Source of the DNA: Phycisphaerae bacterium
GTDB taxonomy: Bacteria > Planctomycetota > Phycisphaerae > Sedimentisphaerales > Anaerobacaceae
Assembly (NCBI GenBank): GCA_016782755.1
Contig: JADHXY010000005.1
Coordinates: 1 to 35,712, forward strand
Direction of reading: 5' to 3'
Length of the DNA: 35,712 nt
Notes under the pieces: generated by a model
Database searches by the model: none
What the model was told of the DNA's origin: nothing
Seen by the model: only the letters and a program-made list of their open reading frames with translations
Shown here: positions 38 through 31,694 of the stretch, piece by piece
Position numbering within the stretch: the stretch's first letter is position 1
Layout: every line of letters begins with the position of its first letter
Position numbers and translations under genes: made by a program

Positions 38-398
38 ACCACGAAGCATACGAAGAGCACGGAGAAAAAAAGAGAGATTTCAGAGGTTAGAAAAAGACAA
101 AAAAGATTAGCCACGAATTGGTTAGAAGTCAGAGGTCAGAAATCAGATATCAGAAAAAGACAAAAAAGATTTTGACAGTCCCGATTTATCGGGGAACAGG
201 ATTGAACAGGATTTTTAAAAAGAAAAGATAAAAAACTTGAACCACGAATTGACACAAATTATCACGAATTTTAAAAAACTTTTTTATCCCGCAAAGGTGC
301 AGAGGCACAAAGTTATTATTCCCGTTGATTGGTCAATATTTATCCGCCCGTTCGACTTCGCTCAGGGCAGACTCTATGGCGGACTCGTCCAATCTCTT
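38..398 (+). repeat. Dispersed mosaic repeat, copy 1, left part
   Basis: About 302 bp (38-339) align almost without gaps to 30841-31142, roughly 95% identical by eye. The block is built of short modules: ACCACGAA..ACGAA, 'agaagtcagaggtcagaaatc', a CCCGATTTATCGGG palindrome (180-193) and doubled ACAGGATT. Positions 340-380 differ from the other copy and contain the TTCGAC..GCTCAGGG module. Homology resumes for 18 bp (381-398 = 31185-31202) and then stops where the restriction gene island begins. No convincing gene is present in 1-474. The bases before 38 hold a further ACAGGATT pair. Confidence 0.85.
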
Positions 399-474
399 GT
401 GTTGTAATTATATGGATTTGCGGGATTAATACAATATAATCTTTGACGGCAAGTGCGGGGATGAGTGACTTGCA

Positions 475-3234
475 CTAAATTCTTTTTGATTGTTTTTTCT
501 TTTTGGTTTTTTTGTTCAGGATTAACGGCTGAGTGTATTGGCTGTAGAGGGTGAAGAGGTATTCAAGGCGTTCGGTTTCGGTTTTGAAAGCTATGGGTCG
601 ATAGCATTTATCTACGGCTGAGTCTAAGGCATTATGCGTTTTGACCAGATCGGGCGGCATCGTGAGAGGGTCGTAAAGGTCGGCAAGAGAGGAGTCGGGG
701 TATTTTTTTCGAGTGTTGAGAACGGCTTGGGCGGTTGACTCTACGGCTGACATTTGCTTGCTGGTCGGGTTTTTCGGCCACGGATAATTATTGTAAACGA
801 TGTTATTTGAATATCGGTAGTCACTTTTCAATCGACCGCAAGTATATTTCACCCACGCCATGTGCATTTGTGATGTCAAAACGCCAAAGTGATACAAGGT
901 AGCGTCTGTGATAATTAAGCATAGATTACTTGCAATAACATTGGGCGGCATAAAACCAATTGGGATATATTGCCTCCGCTCGGAGGAGACACTAGGGATA
1001 ATTATGTATTTTTTCTCCGTATGTGATATATAGGCAAAAAGAGAAGGGCATGTAGCTAATTCATTGGTTACCTTTCTGGGACTACTCAGTCGAAACTCCC
1101 TAACCATTTCTAAACGCTTAACAATATCTGGATATTCTCGCAATTCCCTTGGATTTACATTTTTAAGCCATAGGCACCACCTCTGAATATTGTTAATTAG
1201 TTCCCGACTCCCAACATATTTTCTAAGAAACTTTTCAGCGCTGGAATTTCGTTTCAAAAATTCGCTTTTCTCGTGTTCATCCAAAAGAAGATGCCCACCA
1301 TCTATAGGTTGATTACCAAATCTAATTTGCGGGACATTAGATATCGGATTACTTCTTGAACCTACAATAACATCGTCTGAATCGACCAAATAAGGGTTGA
1401 TGTTCTTCGCTAAGACTTGATGTGGTTCCCCTTTTATATCTTCGTATTCAAAGATTGTTTTTTCTTCTGCATCAAACGCCGCAAATCCTATTATAACAAC
1501 ATGAACGGCGGCTTTTCCTTTTGCCTCGCTGCTCCAGCTAAACGTGCGGTGCGCAAAATGTATCTTAATGTTATACTTGTTAAATAATTCGTTCCAGAGT
1601 ATTCCTACCTGCTCACCCATTGTGATTGAATTGGTGGAGACGAAGGCGACTTTCTTTTGCGTTCCCTGAATATACTGTGCAGCTTTTAAGTACCATGCTG
1701 AGACATAATCCAGAACACCACAACCTTTAACACTATCAAAGATTTGTTTGATTTCGTCTCTTTGTTTTGTGTCCTGAAACTTTGAACCAATAAACGGAGG
1801 ATTGCCCAAGATATAGTTTATCTCTTCTTTGGGCGTGAATTCTTCCCAGTCAACCTGCAAGGCGTTGTCGTTTAGTATGTGTGCGGATTTGATGAGCGGC
1901 AGTGATGGTCTTTGCAGGTCGATTGCGACTGAGAGTTCGACGTTCATCTGGTGGTCAACGAGCCACATGGCGGTTTCGGCTATTCTGGCGGGGAATTCTT
2001 CGATCTCGATGCCGTGGAACTGTTCGACATTTATTAGCGACAATAATTCGCCCATTACGTGTTGGCGCCGGTGGATTTGTTTTAGAATTTCGATTTCGAG
2101 CCGGCGAAGCTCTCTGTATGTTACAACGAGGAAGTTGCCGCAACCGCAGGCGGGGTCGAAGAATTTGAGGTTTGCGAGTTTTTTGTGAAATTCTGTGAGG
2201 CGTTTGTCTTTGCCGCTCTTGAGGTTTTTTATGTGCTCAAATTCTGTGCGAAGGTCATCGAGGAACAATGGTTCGATAAGTTTGAGGATGTTTTTTTCGG
2301 TTGTGTAATGGGCTCCGATCTCTCTTCGCTGTTTTGTGTTCATTACCGATTGGAACATCGAGCCGAATATAGCGGGTGAAATGTTGCTCCATTCAAAATC
2401 ACAGCATTCTAAAAGCACTCCCCGCATCCTGCTGTTGAAATATACCGTCCGAAGATTCTCTTCAAACAGCCCGCCGTTGACATATGGAAAATCGTTTAGC
2501 GATTCATCGATGTTTTTCTGACGATCTGCTATTTCAGTATTAAGGGTTTGGAAAATGGATGTCAAATGAGTGCCAAGATCGCTGCCGTCCTCGTTGGTTT
2601 TGTCTCTTATGTAATCGGTAAAGATGTTTTTATCAAATATTGCTGTGTCATCTGCAAACATGCAAAAGAGCATACGCATCAAAAGGACTTCTAATTCATG
2701 GCCGGTATAGCCACTTTCTAAAAGTTCATCATGCAGTCTGCCCATCTGCTCGGCGGCTTTTATATTTACCGGCGATTCTTCTTTATATTTCTTTTTGGTA
2801 TATCCGGCTATGAATCCAAACAGACTTACGTTATTGTGCAGTTGAGCAAGGTTAAACTCATTCTGTGTATTGTCATCGAGATTATATAATCGGAAGCGGG
2901 CGAAATCAGAAACCAGCACATACTTGGGAAGCTCATGCTCTTTTAAGCCACTAAAATAATTCAGAGCCTGCGAATATGCCTTGTTAAGGTTTTCACCTCT
3001 GGACTTATGCTCTACGAGCAGCATACCTTTCCAGAATAGGTCTATGAATCCATAATTGTCGTCTACTTTTTTTACCGGTTCTTCAAAACTTGCAACACGT
3101 CTGCGGGTGATACCAAAGATATTGAAGAATGCGTTCCAGAAAGATTGAGCCTCAGAGCGTTCTCGGTTCTCGTTTTCCCAGTCTCTACTAAAATCCATCG
3201 CGCGATGTTTAATTTCATTCCAACTGATCGGCAT
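475..3234 (-). CDS. MmeI-like type IIL restriction-modification enzyme (fused endonuclease, methyltransferase and specificity domain)
   Basis: Single-chain restriction-modification enzyme: the family cuts DNA at a fixed distance from its site and protects the host by adenine methylation of one strand, using one target-recognition domain for both activities. From the chosen start it is 919 aa, the length I recall for MmeI. Visible parts: N-terminal nuclease D-X9-E-X-K (D65, E75, K77, in GFIDLFWKG..EHKSRG); helical linker; methyltransferase motif X GAHYT (307-311), motif I DPACGCGNFL (360-369), motif IV NPPF (478-481); putative target-recognition region about 610-790; C-terminal tail. An in-frame ATG 15 bp upstream (3249) exists, but the chosen ATG has AGGA six bases ahead and its SWNEIKHRAMDFS beginning matches the family. 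The gene stands alone, consistent with a self-sufficient type IIL enzyme, and sits inside a split repeat, suggesting horizontal acquisition. The recognition sequence cannot be read from this. Confidence 0.9.
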   Translation of the reverse strand: MPISWNEIKHRAMDFSRDWENENRERSEAQSFWNAFFNIFGITRRRVASFEEPVKKVDDNYGFIDLFWKGMLLVEHKSRGENLNKAYSQALNYFSGLKEHELPKYVLVSDFARFRLYNLDDNTQNEFNLAQLHNNVSLFGFIAGYTKKKYKEESPVNIKAAEQMGRLHDELLESGYTGHELEVLLMRMLFCMFADDTAIFDKNIFTDYIRDKTNEDGSDLGTHLTSIFQTLNTEIADRQKNIDESLNDFPYVNGGLFEENLRTVYFNSRMRGVLLECCDFEWSNISPAIFGSMFQSVMNTKQRREIGAHYTTEKNILKLIEPLFLDDLRTEFEHIKNLKSGKDKRLTEFHKKLANLKFFDPACGCGNFLVVTYRELRRLEIEILKQIHRRQHVMGELLSLINVEQFHGIEIEEFPARIAETAMWLVDHQMNVELSVAIDLQRPSLPLIKSAHILNDNALQVDWEEFTPKEEINYILGNPPFIGSKFQDTKQRDEIKQIFDSVKGCGVLDYVSAWYLKAAQYIQGTQKKVAFVSTNSITMGEQVGILWNELFNKYNIKIHFAHRTFSWSSEAKGKAAVHVVIIGFAAFDAEEKTIFEYEDIKGEPHQVLAKNINPYLVDSDDVIVGSRSNPISNVPQIRFGNQPIDGGHLLLDEHEKSEFLKRNSSAEKFLRKYVGSRELINNIQRWCLWLKNVNPRELREYPDIVKRLEMVREFRLSSPRKVTNELATCPSLFAYISHTEKKYIIIPSVSSERRQYIPIGFMPPNVIASNLCLIITDATLYHFGVLTSQMHMAWVKYTCGRLKSDYRYSNNIVYNNYPWPKNPTSKQMSAVESTAQAVLNTRKKYPDSSLADLYDPLTMPPDLVKTHNALDSAVDKCYRPIAFKTETERLEYLFTLYSQYTQPLILNKKTKKKKQSKRI

Positions 3235-3337
3235 GTTTTGTCCTGTCATCTCTTTTGGCTAAGTATTTTAATTGTTGGCATTATGACGGAATGGGGATAA
3301 AGAGTAAAGGGAAAACTATAAAAGAAGTTAGAAAGGT

Positions 3338-3412
3338 TTTAGATTGCCTCGCTTCAATCAACTACATCGGGAACAAATTTAATAGACCCATTCGGCTGCG
3401 CTCAGGGTGACG
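3338..3412 (+). repeat. Dispersed mosaic repeat, copy 1, right part
   Basis: Positions 3338-3412 match 31217-31290 with one indel, including TTTAGATTGCC, GGGAACAAATTTAATAGACCC and CTCAGGGTGACG. In the other copy this piece lies only 14 bp after the module that ends here at 398. In this copy the two pieces are 2,939 bp apart with the restriction gene between them. The rest of the 3235-3592 gap holds only AT-rich sequence and a possible coding remnant. Confidence 0.75.
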
Positions 3413-3552
3413 GAAATACTGGATTCGGGGCCTTCTTCCCGATCAAGTACATCTGGAAGAAGTGGGGCTGGGATGATATAATAATTCTGGCTCTTCGGAA
3501 TAATTTGTGGGTAAAAAAGTTTGCAATGGTATGGGAAAAGTTTAAGATGTAA
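3343..3552 (+). pseudogene. Possible 3' remnant of an unknown tryptophan-rich protein
   Basis: After a TAG at 3340 one frame stays open to TAA at 3550-3552, with no usable start codon near its beginning. The part after the repeat (from about 3412) reads like protein: TGFGAFFPIKYIWKKWGW followed by a hydrophobic/basic tail ending WEKFKM. This could be the C-terminal end of a gene whose front was lost when the repeat or the restriction island arrived. It may equally be chance; I do not recognise a family. Confidence 0.25.
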
Positions 3553-3592
3553 TAAGGATTACATAATATTATTTATTTGGGGGTTTTAAAAA

Positions 3593-4015
3593 ATGGGGAC
3601 AGAAATTAATCGAGTAGATATATGGGCGGCAAGTATTTCTGATAGTTGCGGCAGTTTGGCGTGCAAGTTTAGGTCTTTGGCGGAGGTTGGTATAGATATT
3701 GAATTTGGCATAGCTCGGCGATGTCATGATATCCCGGGAGAAGCAGTAGCTTTTGTTGCTGGTATTTCGGGGGCGGAACAGGAAAGAGCGGCTGAGAATG
3801 CCGGCTTTAAGGAGACAGAGTCTCTTGCGGCTTTGCGGGTTATAAGCGATGACCGGAGCGGTCTTGGTGCGAGCGTTACCGAATGTATTGCTAAGGCAGG
3901 GATTAATCTGCGTGGATTTTCTGGCGTTAAGGTCGGCAACAAAGTGGTATTCCATATCGCATTTGATTCAAATGAGGATGCAGATAAGGCGATGGCGAGC
4001 CTTAGTGAGATTTAA
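3593..4015 (+). CDS. Small protein with two ACT domains
   Basis: A 140-aa protein made of two ACT modules in tandem (about residues 8-72 and 80-140) and nothing else. ACT domains bind small ligands, usually amino acids, and pair into beta-alpha-beta-beta-alpha-beta regulatory dimers. The second repeat is the clearer one: RVISDDRSGLGASVTE, then a helix, then INLRGFSGVKVGNKVVF, with the D-x-x-G-x-G-like turn between strand and helix. Stand-alone ACT proteins of this size usually act as amino-acid-responsive regulators, but the ligand and partner here are unknown. A G-run lies 11-15 bases before the ATG. It is convergent with the ferritin-like gene and looks monocistronic. Confidence 0.7.
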   Translation: MGTEINRVDIWAASISDSCGSLACKFRSLAEVGIDIEFGIARRCHDIPGEAVAFVAGISGAEQERAAENAGFKETESLAALRVISDDRSGLGASVTECIAKAGINLRGFSGVKVGNKVVFHIAFDSNEDADKAMASLSEI

Positions 4016-7400: not shown

Positions 7401-7602
7401 TAGAACATATTTGTAATTTAAAGTCAAGAATAATTTTGAAAATTTACGAAAAAAGATTGAAATGGTCTATTATAATACCCAAAATAAGCTGTTTTCCGCC
7501 TCAAAAAAAAGGTTTTATCGGAAGTTTGATAATATTTAAAAAAATAATTAGCAAATCAAAAATATGATTTTTCTTCATAAAAGCAAAGGCTGTTGATTTT
7601 TG

Positions 7603-8838
7603 TTATTTTATAATAGCCTTTCCTTTTCGTATCGGTTTCTGTTTTGCGTATCTGTCTATATTCCTTATGGCTTGTCTCAGCCGCTGCTCGTTTTCGACCA
7701 GTGCGATCCTCATATATCCCTCGCCGTTTTCGCCAAATGCCCTCCCCGGAGCCATAGATACTTCTGCATGTTCCATTAGTTCCATAGCAAAATCAATGCT
7801 TCCCAGGCCGCGCGAATGCTGCTGGGGATATTTTGCCCATACGAACATGCTTGCTCTCGGCTTTTCTACTTCCCAGCCGATCTTTGACAGGGCGTCGCAA
7901 ACTACGTCCCTTCTCGTTTGATAAATGGCGTTTTGCTTTATTCTGAAATCCTCGCAGTGCCGCAATCCTATGATGCTTGCAATCTGTATGGCCTGAAAGA
8001 TACCGTAATCGTAGTAGCCTTTTATGGTGGCTAAATAATTTATCATCTGCTTATTTCCGACCATGAATCCCACCCTAAAACCAGCCATATTATATGGTTT
8101 GCTCATGGTTATCATCTCTACGCCGACGTCTTTGGCGCCTTTCGCAGACAAGAAACTTGGCGGTTCATAGCCGTCAAAATTTGTCTCTCCATAAGCAAAA
8201 TCGTGTACTACTGCTATTTTGAATTTTTTTGCGAGATCCACGACCATTTCGAAAAAACCTTCATCGACGGTCATAGCCGTCGGGTTATGCGGATAGTTGA
8301 GTATTAGCATTTTCGGCTTGGGATAGAGGTGCTCGCAGACCTCTGCAATGGTATCGATAAACTTATCGTCACAGCCGAGCGGTACGGAGATGACGTTTCC
8401 TCCGGCTAAGGCTACGCCGTAATTGTGTATTGGAAATGCCGGATCGGGTACTATAGCGGTATCGCCTGACTGGAGCATTGCCAGGCATAAGTGGCTGAAA
8501 CCTTCCTTTGAGCCGAGGCATGCAAGTACCTCGGTATCCGGGTCAAGCTTTACGTTCCATTTCTTTTCGTATTTTATTGCGACTTCGCGGCGGAGGTTTT
8601 TTATACCCTTTGAGGCAGAATATCGGTGATTTCGGGGGTCATGCGCGGCTTCGCAGAGCTTTTCTATTACGATTGGCGGGGCCGGGTCCGAGGGATTGCC
8701 CATGCCAAGGTCTATGATGTCTGCACCCTGCTGGCGCATCTGGAGTTTTAAGGCGTTTAGTCTGCCAAAGAGATATGGAGGCAGACGTTTTATTCTTTGT
8801 GCTGGTTCGATATTAAAATCCGGCATATTATTATCCAT
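7603..8838 (-). CDS. alaC: AlaC-type glutamate-pyruvate aminotransferase
   Basis: PLP-dependent class I/II aminotransferase of 411 aa that most likely interconverts pyruvate plus glutamate with alanine plus 2-oxoglutarate in the cytoplasm. Long stretches resemble E. coli AlaC, such as RLPPYLF, IIDLGMGNP, GSKEGFSHL, and the run around MSKPYNMAGFRVGFMVGNK. The PLP lysine is K247; supporting residues are N185 in NYPHNPT and D213 in VHDFAY. LL-diaminopimelate aminotransferase is a relative and a less likely alternative. No strong ribosome site precedes the ATG; a second ATG lies four codons in. It is divergent from argB, 186 bp away, and probably monocistronic. Confidence 0.85.
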   Translation of the reverse strand: MDNNMPDFNIEPAQRIKRLPPYLFGRLNALKLQMRQQGADIIDLGMGNPSDPAPPIVIEKLCEAAHDPRNHRYSASKGIKNLRREVAIKYEKKWNVKLDPDTEVLACLGSKEGFSHLCLAMLQSGDTAIVPDPAFPIHNYGVALAGGNVISVPLGCDDKFIDTIAEVCEHLYPKPKMLILNYPHNPTAMTVDEGFFEMVVDLAKKFKIAVVHDFAYGETNFDGYEPPSFLSAKGAKDVGVEMITMSKPYNMAGFRVGFMVGNKQMINYLATIKGYYDYGIFQAIQIASIIGLRHCEDFRIKQNAIYQTRRDVVCDALSKIGWEVEKPRASMFVWAKYPQQHSRGLGSIDFAMELMEHAEVSMAPGRAFGENGEGYMRIALVENEQRLRQAIRNIDRYAKQKPIRKGKAIIK

Positions 8839-30748: not shown

Positions 30749-30817
30749 GAAAAGTTGTGCGTTTTTTACAAATTTTTTTACAGTACATGCGTAAACGATT
30801 GATTCCCGATAAATCGG

Positions 30818-31158
30818 GATGTCGCTTTGCTCCATATTTCACCACGAAGCACACGAAGAGCACGAAGAAAAAAAAGTCAGATTTCAGAGGTTAGAAAAAG
30901 ACAAAAAAGATTAGCCACGAATTGGTTAGAAGTCAGAGGTCAGAAATCAGATATCAGAAAAAGACAAAAATATTTTGACAGTCCCGATTTATCGGGGAAC
31001 AGGATTGAACAGGATTTTTAAAAAGAAAAGATAAAAAACTTGAACCACGAATTGACACGAATTATCACGAATTTTAAAAAACTTTTTTATCCCGCCAAGG
31101 CGCAGAGGCGCGGAGTTATTATTCCCGTTGGTTCTTCAATATGGAGCAAAGCGACATC
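30818..31158. repeat. Element bracketed by a 21-bp perfect inverted repeat
   Basis: The 21 bases 30818-30838 (GATGTCGCTTTGCTCC plus ATATT) are the exact reverse complement of 31138-31158. They enclose the 302-bp mosaic block. A palindrome TCCCGAT-AA-ATCGGGA (30804-30819) overlaps the left arm. The arrangement resembles a small non-autonomous element, but no transposase or target duplication is visible. The gene-free stretch 30629-31482 is otherwise the other repeats listed here plus unremarkable sequence. Confidence 0.6.
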
Positions 31159-31290
31159 TCGGCGCCTTTTGTCGGGATTTGTCGGGACTCGTCCAATCTC
31201 TTTTATTTTAGAGCAATTTAGATTGCCGCGTCCCGATCAACTACGTTGGGAACAAATTTAATAGACCCGTTCGACAAGCTCAGGGTGACG
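30841..31290 (+). repeat. Dispersed mosaic repeat, copy 2 (nearly uninterrupted)
   Basis: Positions 30841-31142 match 38-339 at about 95%. 31185-31202 match 381-398. 31217-31290 match 3338-3412. Only 14 bp separate the last two pieces here, against 2,939 bp in copy 1. Open frames through it are repeat translations (for example TKHTKSTK from the CACGAAG units) and not genes. Confidence 0.85.
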
Positions 31291-31437
31291 AAAAGAGTGG
31301 ACACTAAAACGGACACCTTTTTTGACACATACAGCTTTCCCCGTGTGTAACCAGTCGTCACCAGTTGGCAATAAGCAGGGTAATTACCCGAAAAACATAG
31401 GAAACGATAACTGCTTAGACAATGAACAGTTAGGAAC

Positions 31438-31482: not shown

Positions 31483-31554
31483 AGCCAACGGTCGGAATCG
31501 AACCGACAACCGCTGGTTTACAAAACCAGGGCTCTACCGTTGAGCTACGTTGGC
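31483..31554 (-). tRNA. tRNA-Thr (anticodon TGT)
   Basis: Minus-strand cloverleaf with acceptor GCCAACG/CGTTGGC, D arm GCTC/GAGC, anticodon stem CTGGT/ACCAG enclosing TTTGTAA (anticodon TGT at 31520-31522) and T arm GTCGG-TTCGATT-CCGAC. CCA is not encoded. The discriminator base is T (U73) rather than the A typical of E. coli tRNA-Thr. It is 67 bp after tRNA-Lys in the same direction. Confidence 0.94.
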
Positions 31555-31621: not shown

Positions 31622-31694
31622 TGAGAGTGTTGGGGCTCGAACCCAAGACCTACGCCTTAAAAGGGCGTTGCTCTACCAACTGAGCTACACTCCC
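31622..31694 (-). tRNA. tRNA-Lys (anticodon TTT)
   Basis: Minus-strand cloverleaf with acceptor GGGAGTG/CACTCTC (one G-U pair), D arm GCTC..GAGC, anticodon stem ACGCC/GGCGT enclosing CTTTTAA (anticodon TTT at 31659-31661), T loop TTCGAGC and discriminator A. CCA is not encoded. It is first of a two-tRNA transcript with tRNA-Thr. Confidence 0.95.

Follow-up and report, generated by a model that had tools for sequence, protein, structure and literature searches.

How did a solitary MmeI-like restriction gene come to stand between two short sequences that, elsewhere in the same stretch of DNA, lie almost side by side? The stretch analysed here (the window; 35,712 nucleotides) covers contig C17 from its first base on; the contig belongs to a 1.86-Mb draft genome with a completeness of 84.6%. 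An earlier note had pointed out that in one copy of a repeat (copy 2) positions 31185–31202 and 31217–31290 are separated by 14 bp, whereas the corresponding pieces of copy 1 (381–398 and 3338–3412) are parted by 2,939 bp containing the restriction gene; sequence inspection and repeat finding bear out both layouts. The first piece matches at 18/18 bp (88% when extended to 26 bp in repeat finding), and the second is 86% identical between 3338–3394 and 31217–31273 (83% in blastn of 3338–3423 against 31217–31301). Aligning the two copies confirmed these pieces and added, to the left of the first one, a composite intergenic repeat adjoining each copy, 310 bp long and 94% identical (plus strand; 30–339 and 30833–31142). 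A 24-nt inverted repeat (96%; 30815–30838 and 31138–31161) lies inside copy 2 and is also dispersed across the genome. The note had taken the gene to be acquired within an existing repeat, with copy 2 as its near-empty counterpart. While the underlying observation is confirmed, we suggest that this reading should mostly be replaced by another one, in which the gene is an accessory cassette bounded by a conserved element, termed H in the following.

The gene itself (475–3249, minus strand) is intact and encodes 924 residues, of which 16–909 are covered in one chain by the Pfam domains MmeI_N, MmeI_hel, MmeI_Mtase, MmeI_TRD and MmeI_C; PADLOC calls it REase_MTase_IIG with 1253 bits. This is the domain architecture of an MmeI-type IIG enzyme, with predicted cleavage and methylation activities. 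Close relatives are widespread and located in unrelated gene contexts, and sequence comparison supports the view that the gene is horizontally mobile. The closest family homologue (G004) is 88% identical over 441 residues, with DNA similarity ending a few bases upstream of the start codon. By eye, this homologue stops at about codon 441 and continues as enolase-like sequence (L091 4250–4796, on the same contig as G004:C185); the break may reflect either a chimeric contig or a real fusion. In a single-contig genome (G038), MmeI homologues occur twice, some 24 kb from each other (L002, G038:C1:2701056-2703785, and G038:C1:2676751-2678538), both of which contain in-frame stops within the matched region. 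In agreement with the note, no integrase is seen beside the restriction gene, and repeat finding in the window revealed no inverted repeat pair flanking 381–3412.

The 18-bp piece, an exact match, turned out to be the gene-side end of a longer element, H, with a core of about 76 nt and a middle that differs between the window copies. Copy 1 of H (311–412, minus strand) lies directly 3' of the MmeI stop and scores 63.7 bits (E = 6e-9; 4.7e-10 in another run) with R1, a covariance model trained on 14 H copies, all from other genomes. Copy 2 (31114–31216, minus strand; 43.3 bits, E = 5.6e-5) has no cargo gene; its neighbours are a prepilin-like ORF on one side and two tRNA genes (31483–31554 and 31622–31694) on the other; an Rfam scan of the window returned tRNAs only. 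The element is laid out as AAGAGATTGGACGAG, an optional hairpin and then TAAATATTGAAGAA(G/C)CAACGGGAACTTGTTATA, and its full form terminates in ...TGTATAATCATTGTTRG. The hairpin, TCCGCC-ATA-GGCGGA or TCCAGC-AAA-GCTGGA, is often lengthened by other palindromes and shows some two-sided base changes among its pairs; shorter copies have no hairpin at all. A REP-like palindromic piece in the variable loop of copy 1 (347–375, no strand assigned), recognised by blastn of the modules and by comparing the variable loop across genomes, is also dispersed alone in the genome. Between the MmeI stop and H runs a trailer (399–470, minus strand) which, as flank comparison revealed, is common to H loci of other genomes (L201, L202, L203).

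Of the 298 genomes that represent the class, R1 matches 14, each of them a member of the same order, and none of the matches listed lies outside that order. Near MmeI homologues of other lineages H is absent (52 loci, 480 kb scanned), so that H is a property of the lineage, not of the gene. Seven loci of this genome have TCGTCCAATCTCTT within intergenic repeats; on the gene strand it reads AAGAGATTGGACGA, the start of H. Because GACTCGTCCAATCTCTT has four exact occurrences in the whole 1.86-Mb genome (repeat counts in this genome being based on sequence searches), and because the longer GGACTCGTCCAATCTCTTTTATT pattern, with up to three mismatches allowed, is found in 15 of the order's 161 genomes while the reversed control gives two hits overall, a chance match is ruled out. 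Plasmids gave no match to H. In viral contigs, 13 exact 16-mers were found, but the model lends convincing support to none of them (its best hit, in L283, has E = 7e-5 and lacks a clear right half), and no match was obtained with the other half of H. Minimal copies yield QEIGRVLKKQREL in one frame; H as the end of a protein-coding gene was rejected, as no gene bears this sequence and hairpin copies disrupt the frame. Among the papers on integrons and planctomycete repeats whose titles and abstracts were seen, none describes the element there.

The boundaries of H were defined from 31 left ends and 25 right ends in genomes of the order. Inside H, each base carries about 1.3–2 bits of information; past AAGAGATTGG at the left end and past GTTRG at the right end, most bases carry less than 0.5, and the loss is sharper on the right. 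There, GTT (1.2–2.0 bits) is followed by R/G before conservation is lost (n = 25), with ATT, GCT and GTTC variants occurring too. In both window copies and in C65 the right end is truncated at CAACGGGAA and fused to another repeat. Within this genome, both C17 copies, C65 and C107 share the end CTCTT, their sequences parting at the next base, and the same base of H abuts different cargo, or none, in different copies. Such shared, sharp end points favour a defined junction, but homologous recombination, which the note had preferred, may still apply, also in the form of exchange between H copies.

The gene preceding H lies on the same strand at 30 of 33 sites, with a median distance of about 70 nt from stop to H, the set of 33 including a few loose matches, one of them probably a chance hit within a helicase gene; the following gene is on the same strand at 22 of 31. 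H separates genes in head-to-tail arrays in G071, where it thereby also stands shortly before the start of the following gene, and tandem sites of one orientation with cassettes between them were found at G071:C46 (four to five sites), G071:C15 and G096:C177. Copies without a cassette gene exist as well (L201 and window copy 2). The cargo that ends at H or close to it in this genome comprises, apart from the MmeI gene, orphans at C65 and C84, a T5orf172-type gene at C2 and a DUF2971 gene at C107, and two-gene cargo consists of a DNA methylase with either an MjaI-like endonuclease (C106) or a PIN-domain gene (C87). An intact HEPN/nucleotidyltransferase gene is found at C103 (L134 2813–3676), and shortened remnants of it were seen by eye beside the H-linked genes of C106 and C107 (L133 871–1119 and L137 6053–6247). 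Cargo in relatives comprises a methylase with an EcoO109I-like endonuclease, PDDEXK_5, FRG, AbiGi and many family-less genes, as well as AAA_21 with DUF4276, AAA_13 and DUF2971, which PADLOC names HEC-01, PDC-S06 and PDC-S31, respectively; N6/N4 methylases and HEPN/MNT are further cargo families. The accessory genes at H are largely anti-phage or orphan, and their link to defence is a strong impression rather than an enrichment measured against matched control sites. As about half of the cargo genes outside this genome belong to no known family, the label "defence" is only partly shown.

One cassette gene is found at two unrelated sites in two genera (91% identity over 683 bp), with the similarity extending from one H half to the next. 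What lies at a given chromosomal site, flanked by typA and a conserved rRNA-methyltransferase-like gene, differs among relatives: five genes with four to five H copies in G071, H copies together with other genes in G034, and a single gene without any H in G096. In G034, a cassette with H also lies between 3'-end fragments of the methyltransferase gene and typA (G034:C114; L207 2334–3986), a partial second copy of the hotspot that adjoins the real one and that we regard as a sign of recombination carrying the hotspot edges along. Beside the cassette array at G071:C15, two more methyltransferase-gene 3' ends surround an rlmN-like gene (L198 8055–8267 and 9482–9749).

The second piece of the window repeats is unrelated to H. 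It belongs to a separate family with the core GGGAACAAATTTAATAGACCC, present at five places of the genome, mostly without H in the order seen in copy 2; one member lies on the start side of the MmeI gene (3338–3423, plus strand) and another adjoins H copy 2 (31217–31301, plus strand). At C106 and C2 this piece is on the opposite side of H, at C103 it occurs without H, and C65, C107 and C87 have H without a good nearby copy of it, the outcome that the note had named as refuting its own reading; H directly followed by the second piece is unique to window copy 2 among the H loci of this genome. A third dispersed repeat (about 3277–3333, plus strand; blastn of 3250–3560), upstream of the MmeI start and also present at C2, C84, C103, C65, C107, C59 and C115, falls inside the supposed insert of copy 1. 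The genes flanking the repeats on the outside differ between the two copies, which are therefore paralogous, not allelic. Given two separate families and an order unique to copy 2, the latter is an H that lacks cargo and stands next to another repeat, rather than an empty allele, and the idea of a near-empty counterpart of the same site is not supported. Approaching the MmeI locus via its right neighbour (ACT-domain gene, 3593–4015) gave no empty site, with five clear homologues among 40 relatives and none in a common gene order. What survives of the proposed acquisition within a repeat is that the gene is horizontally mobile and tied to a dispersed repeat; this repeat is better understood as the 3' boundary of the cargo than as a sequence interrupted by it, which corrects the picture of a gene inserted into a repeat.

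The same family also contains a complete integron (G111:C172; L227 406–8409), made up of IntI at 7537–8409, canonical attC sites and a cassette array; four other contigs of G111 carry short pieces that match the IntI C-terminus only (L228–L231). Among 18 genomes tested, G111 is the one with an integron integrase above cut-off (IntI, 333 bits), and the best TIGR02249 match in the genome of the window (84.6% complete) reaches 75.8 bits versus a cut-off of 265; an integrase is not needed for CALIN status. According to published descriptions (PMC9024848; PMC8352920), attC sites keep their structure while their sequence varies. H behaves almost the other way round, its sequence being conserved rather than its structure: most copies fold with −1 to −9 kcal/mol per 100 nt, as opposed to −15 to −25 for the canonical G111 sites, and neither folding energies nor an ends-paired test against five canonical G111 sites indicated a single strand with R'/R'' and L'/L'' paired. 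L''/L' complementarity amounts to up to seven of eight bases, in a test that is non-significant for most real attC sites too and has no power. H as a canonical attC site was rejected on account of its folding, and since, in addition, a clear integrase was found in G111 alone among the 18 genomes, we do not file H as attC, though it may work like one.

Based on these results, we put the probability at roughly 55% that the MmeI gene is one of many acquired accessory cassettes bounded by H, that copy 2 is a cargo-less copy and that H is the exchange handle that brought the gene here. H would then serve as a handle for swapping cassettes, each consisting of a gene and its H, either through a site-specific recombinase acting at the H ends, where GTTRG resembles the integron core GTTRRRY, or through homologous recombination between H copies; the MmeI gene would have reached the window site by such an exchange. 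Should H indeed delimit mobile defence genes, these could be traced by their sequence boundary, the many orphans beside H included, with no need for homology to described systems, and one would have to ask which recombinase moves them in genomes lacking an integron integrase. For the order as a whole, H may provide a general means of finding such genes.

Other readings account for parts of the evidence. An insertion of the MmeI gene into a pre-existing repeat, by homologous recombination between repeats and with copy 2 as the near-empty counterpart, agrees with the equal order of the pieces in both copies and with the 94% identity of the flanking composite repeat, but it is improbable in view of the separate families to which the pieces belong, their copy-2 order being unique in the genome and reversed at C106 and C2, the third repeat within the supposed insert and the unrelated outer-flank genes. 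An assembly artefact, in which the contig start would be a chimeric join at a repeat, is more improbable by far: although copy 1 starts at contig base 1 and many genomic repeat hits lie near contig ends, the join of H and trailer (399–470) recurs in other genomes, and the window copies, as they differ by 6%, were not collapsed in assembly.

Less remote, if still doubtful, is the view of H as a miniature repeat or expression element (a terminator/promoter unit) that settles behind gene ends, where constraint is loose, without moving genes, its association with accessory genes reflecting tolerated insertion sites. Nested REP-like palindromes, solitary copies such as window copy 2 and L201, and a TATAAT-like motif near the start of the next gene would fit such an element; the orientation fixed relative to genes (30/33), the same-base junctions with unrelated cargo and the cassette that recurs between H halves at two sites would not. 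We hold it to be about equally tentative that H is a divergent attC of a sedentary integron (CALIN), mobilised in trans by an integron integrase. Cassette orientation, arrays, orphan and defence cargo, a variable middle, the right GTTRG and left AAC near R'/R'' cores, and the true integron of G111 speak for such a site, against its weak folding, the conservation of sequence rather than structure, and an integrase above cut-off in one of 18 genomes and not in that of the window. With similarly low confidence, H could be the recombination site of an as yet undescribed system, other than integrons, by which cassettes with anti-phage genes are exchanged within this one order, the site being sequence-specific, largely unfolded and delimited by AAGAGATTGG and GTTRG.

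In comparison with known systems, the restriction gene is an ordinary member of the solitary MmeI-family type IIG genes, with all five MmeI domains, a single-gene system and wide horizontal spread; the H boundary alone sets it apart. Like REP- and MITE-like dispersed repeats, H is short, intergenic and partly palindromic, with nested repeats, but it differs from these by its fixed orientation behind stop codons, its shared cargo junctions and about 40 non-palindromic bases whose conservation is confined to the order. With integron cassettes and CALIN, including sedentary chromosomal integrons, the H loci have in common the head-to-tail arrangement of accessory genes, a sequence resembling a recombination site behind each gene and always in the same orientation, a variable middle, and orphan and anti-phage cargo; the GTTRG of the sharp right end resembles their core. 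In contrast to these, H is conserved in sequence and mostly unfolded, is scattered over many loci, singly or in short arrays, in this genome without a detected integron integrase, and some of its units contain several genes. Finally, as in defence islands and hotspots, accessory genes are exchanged between the same two housekeeping genes (the methyltransferase gene and typA), but here every gene or small operon has a boundary element of its own, in place of bounds at the hotspot alone.
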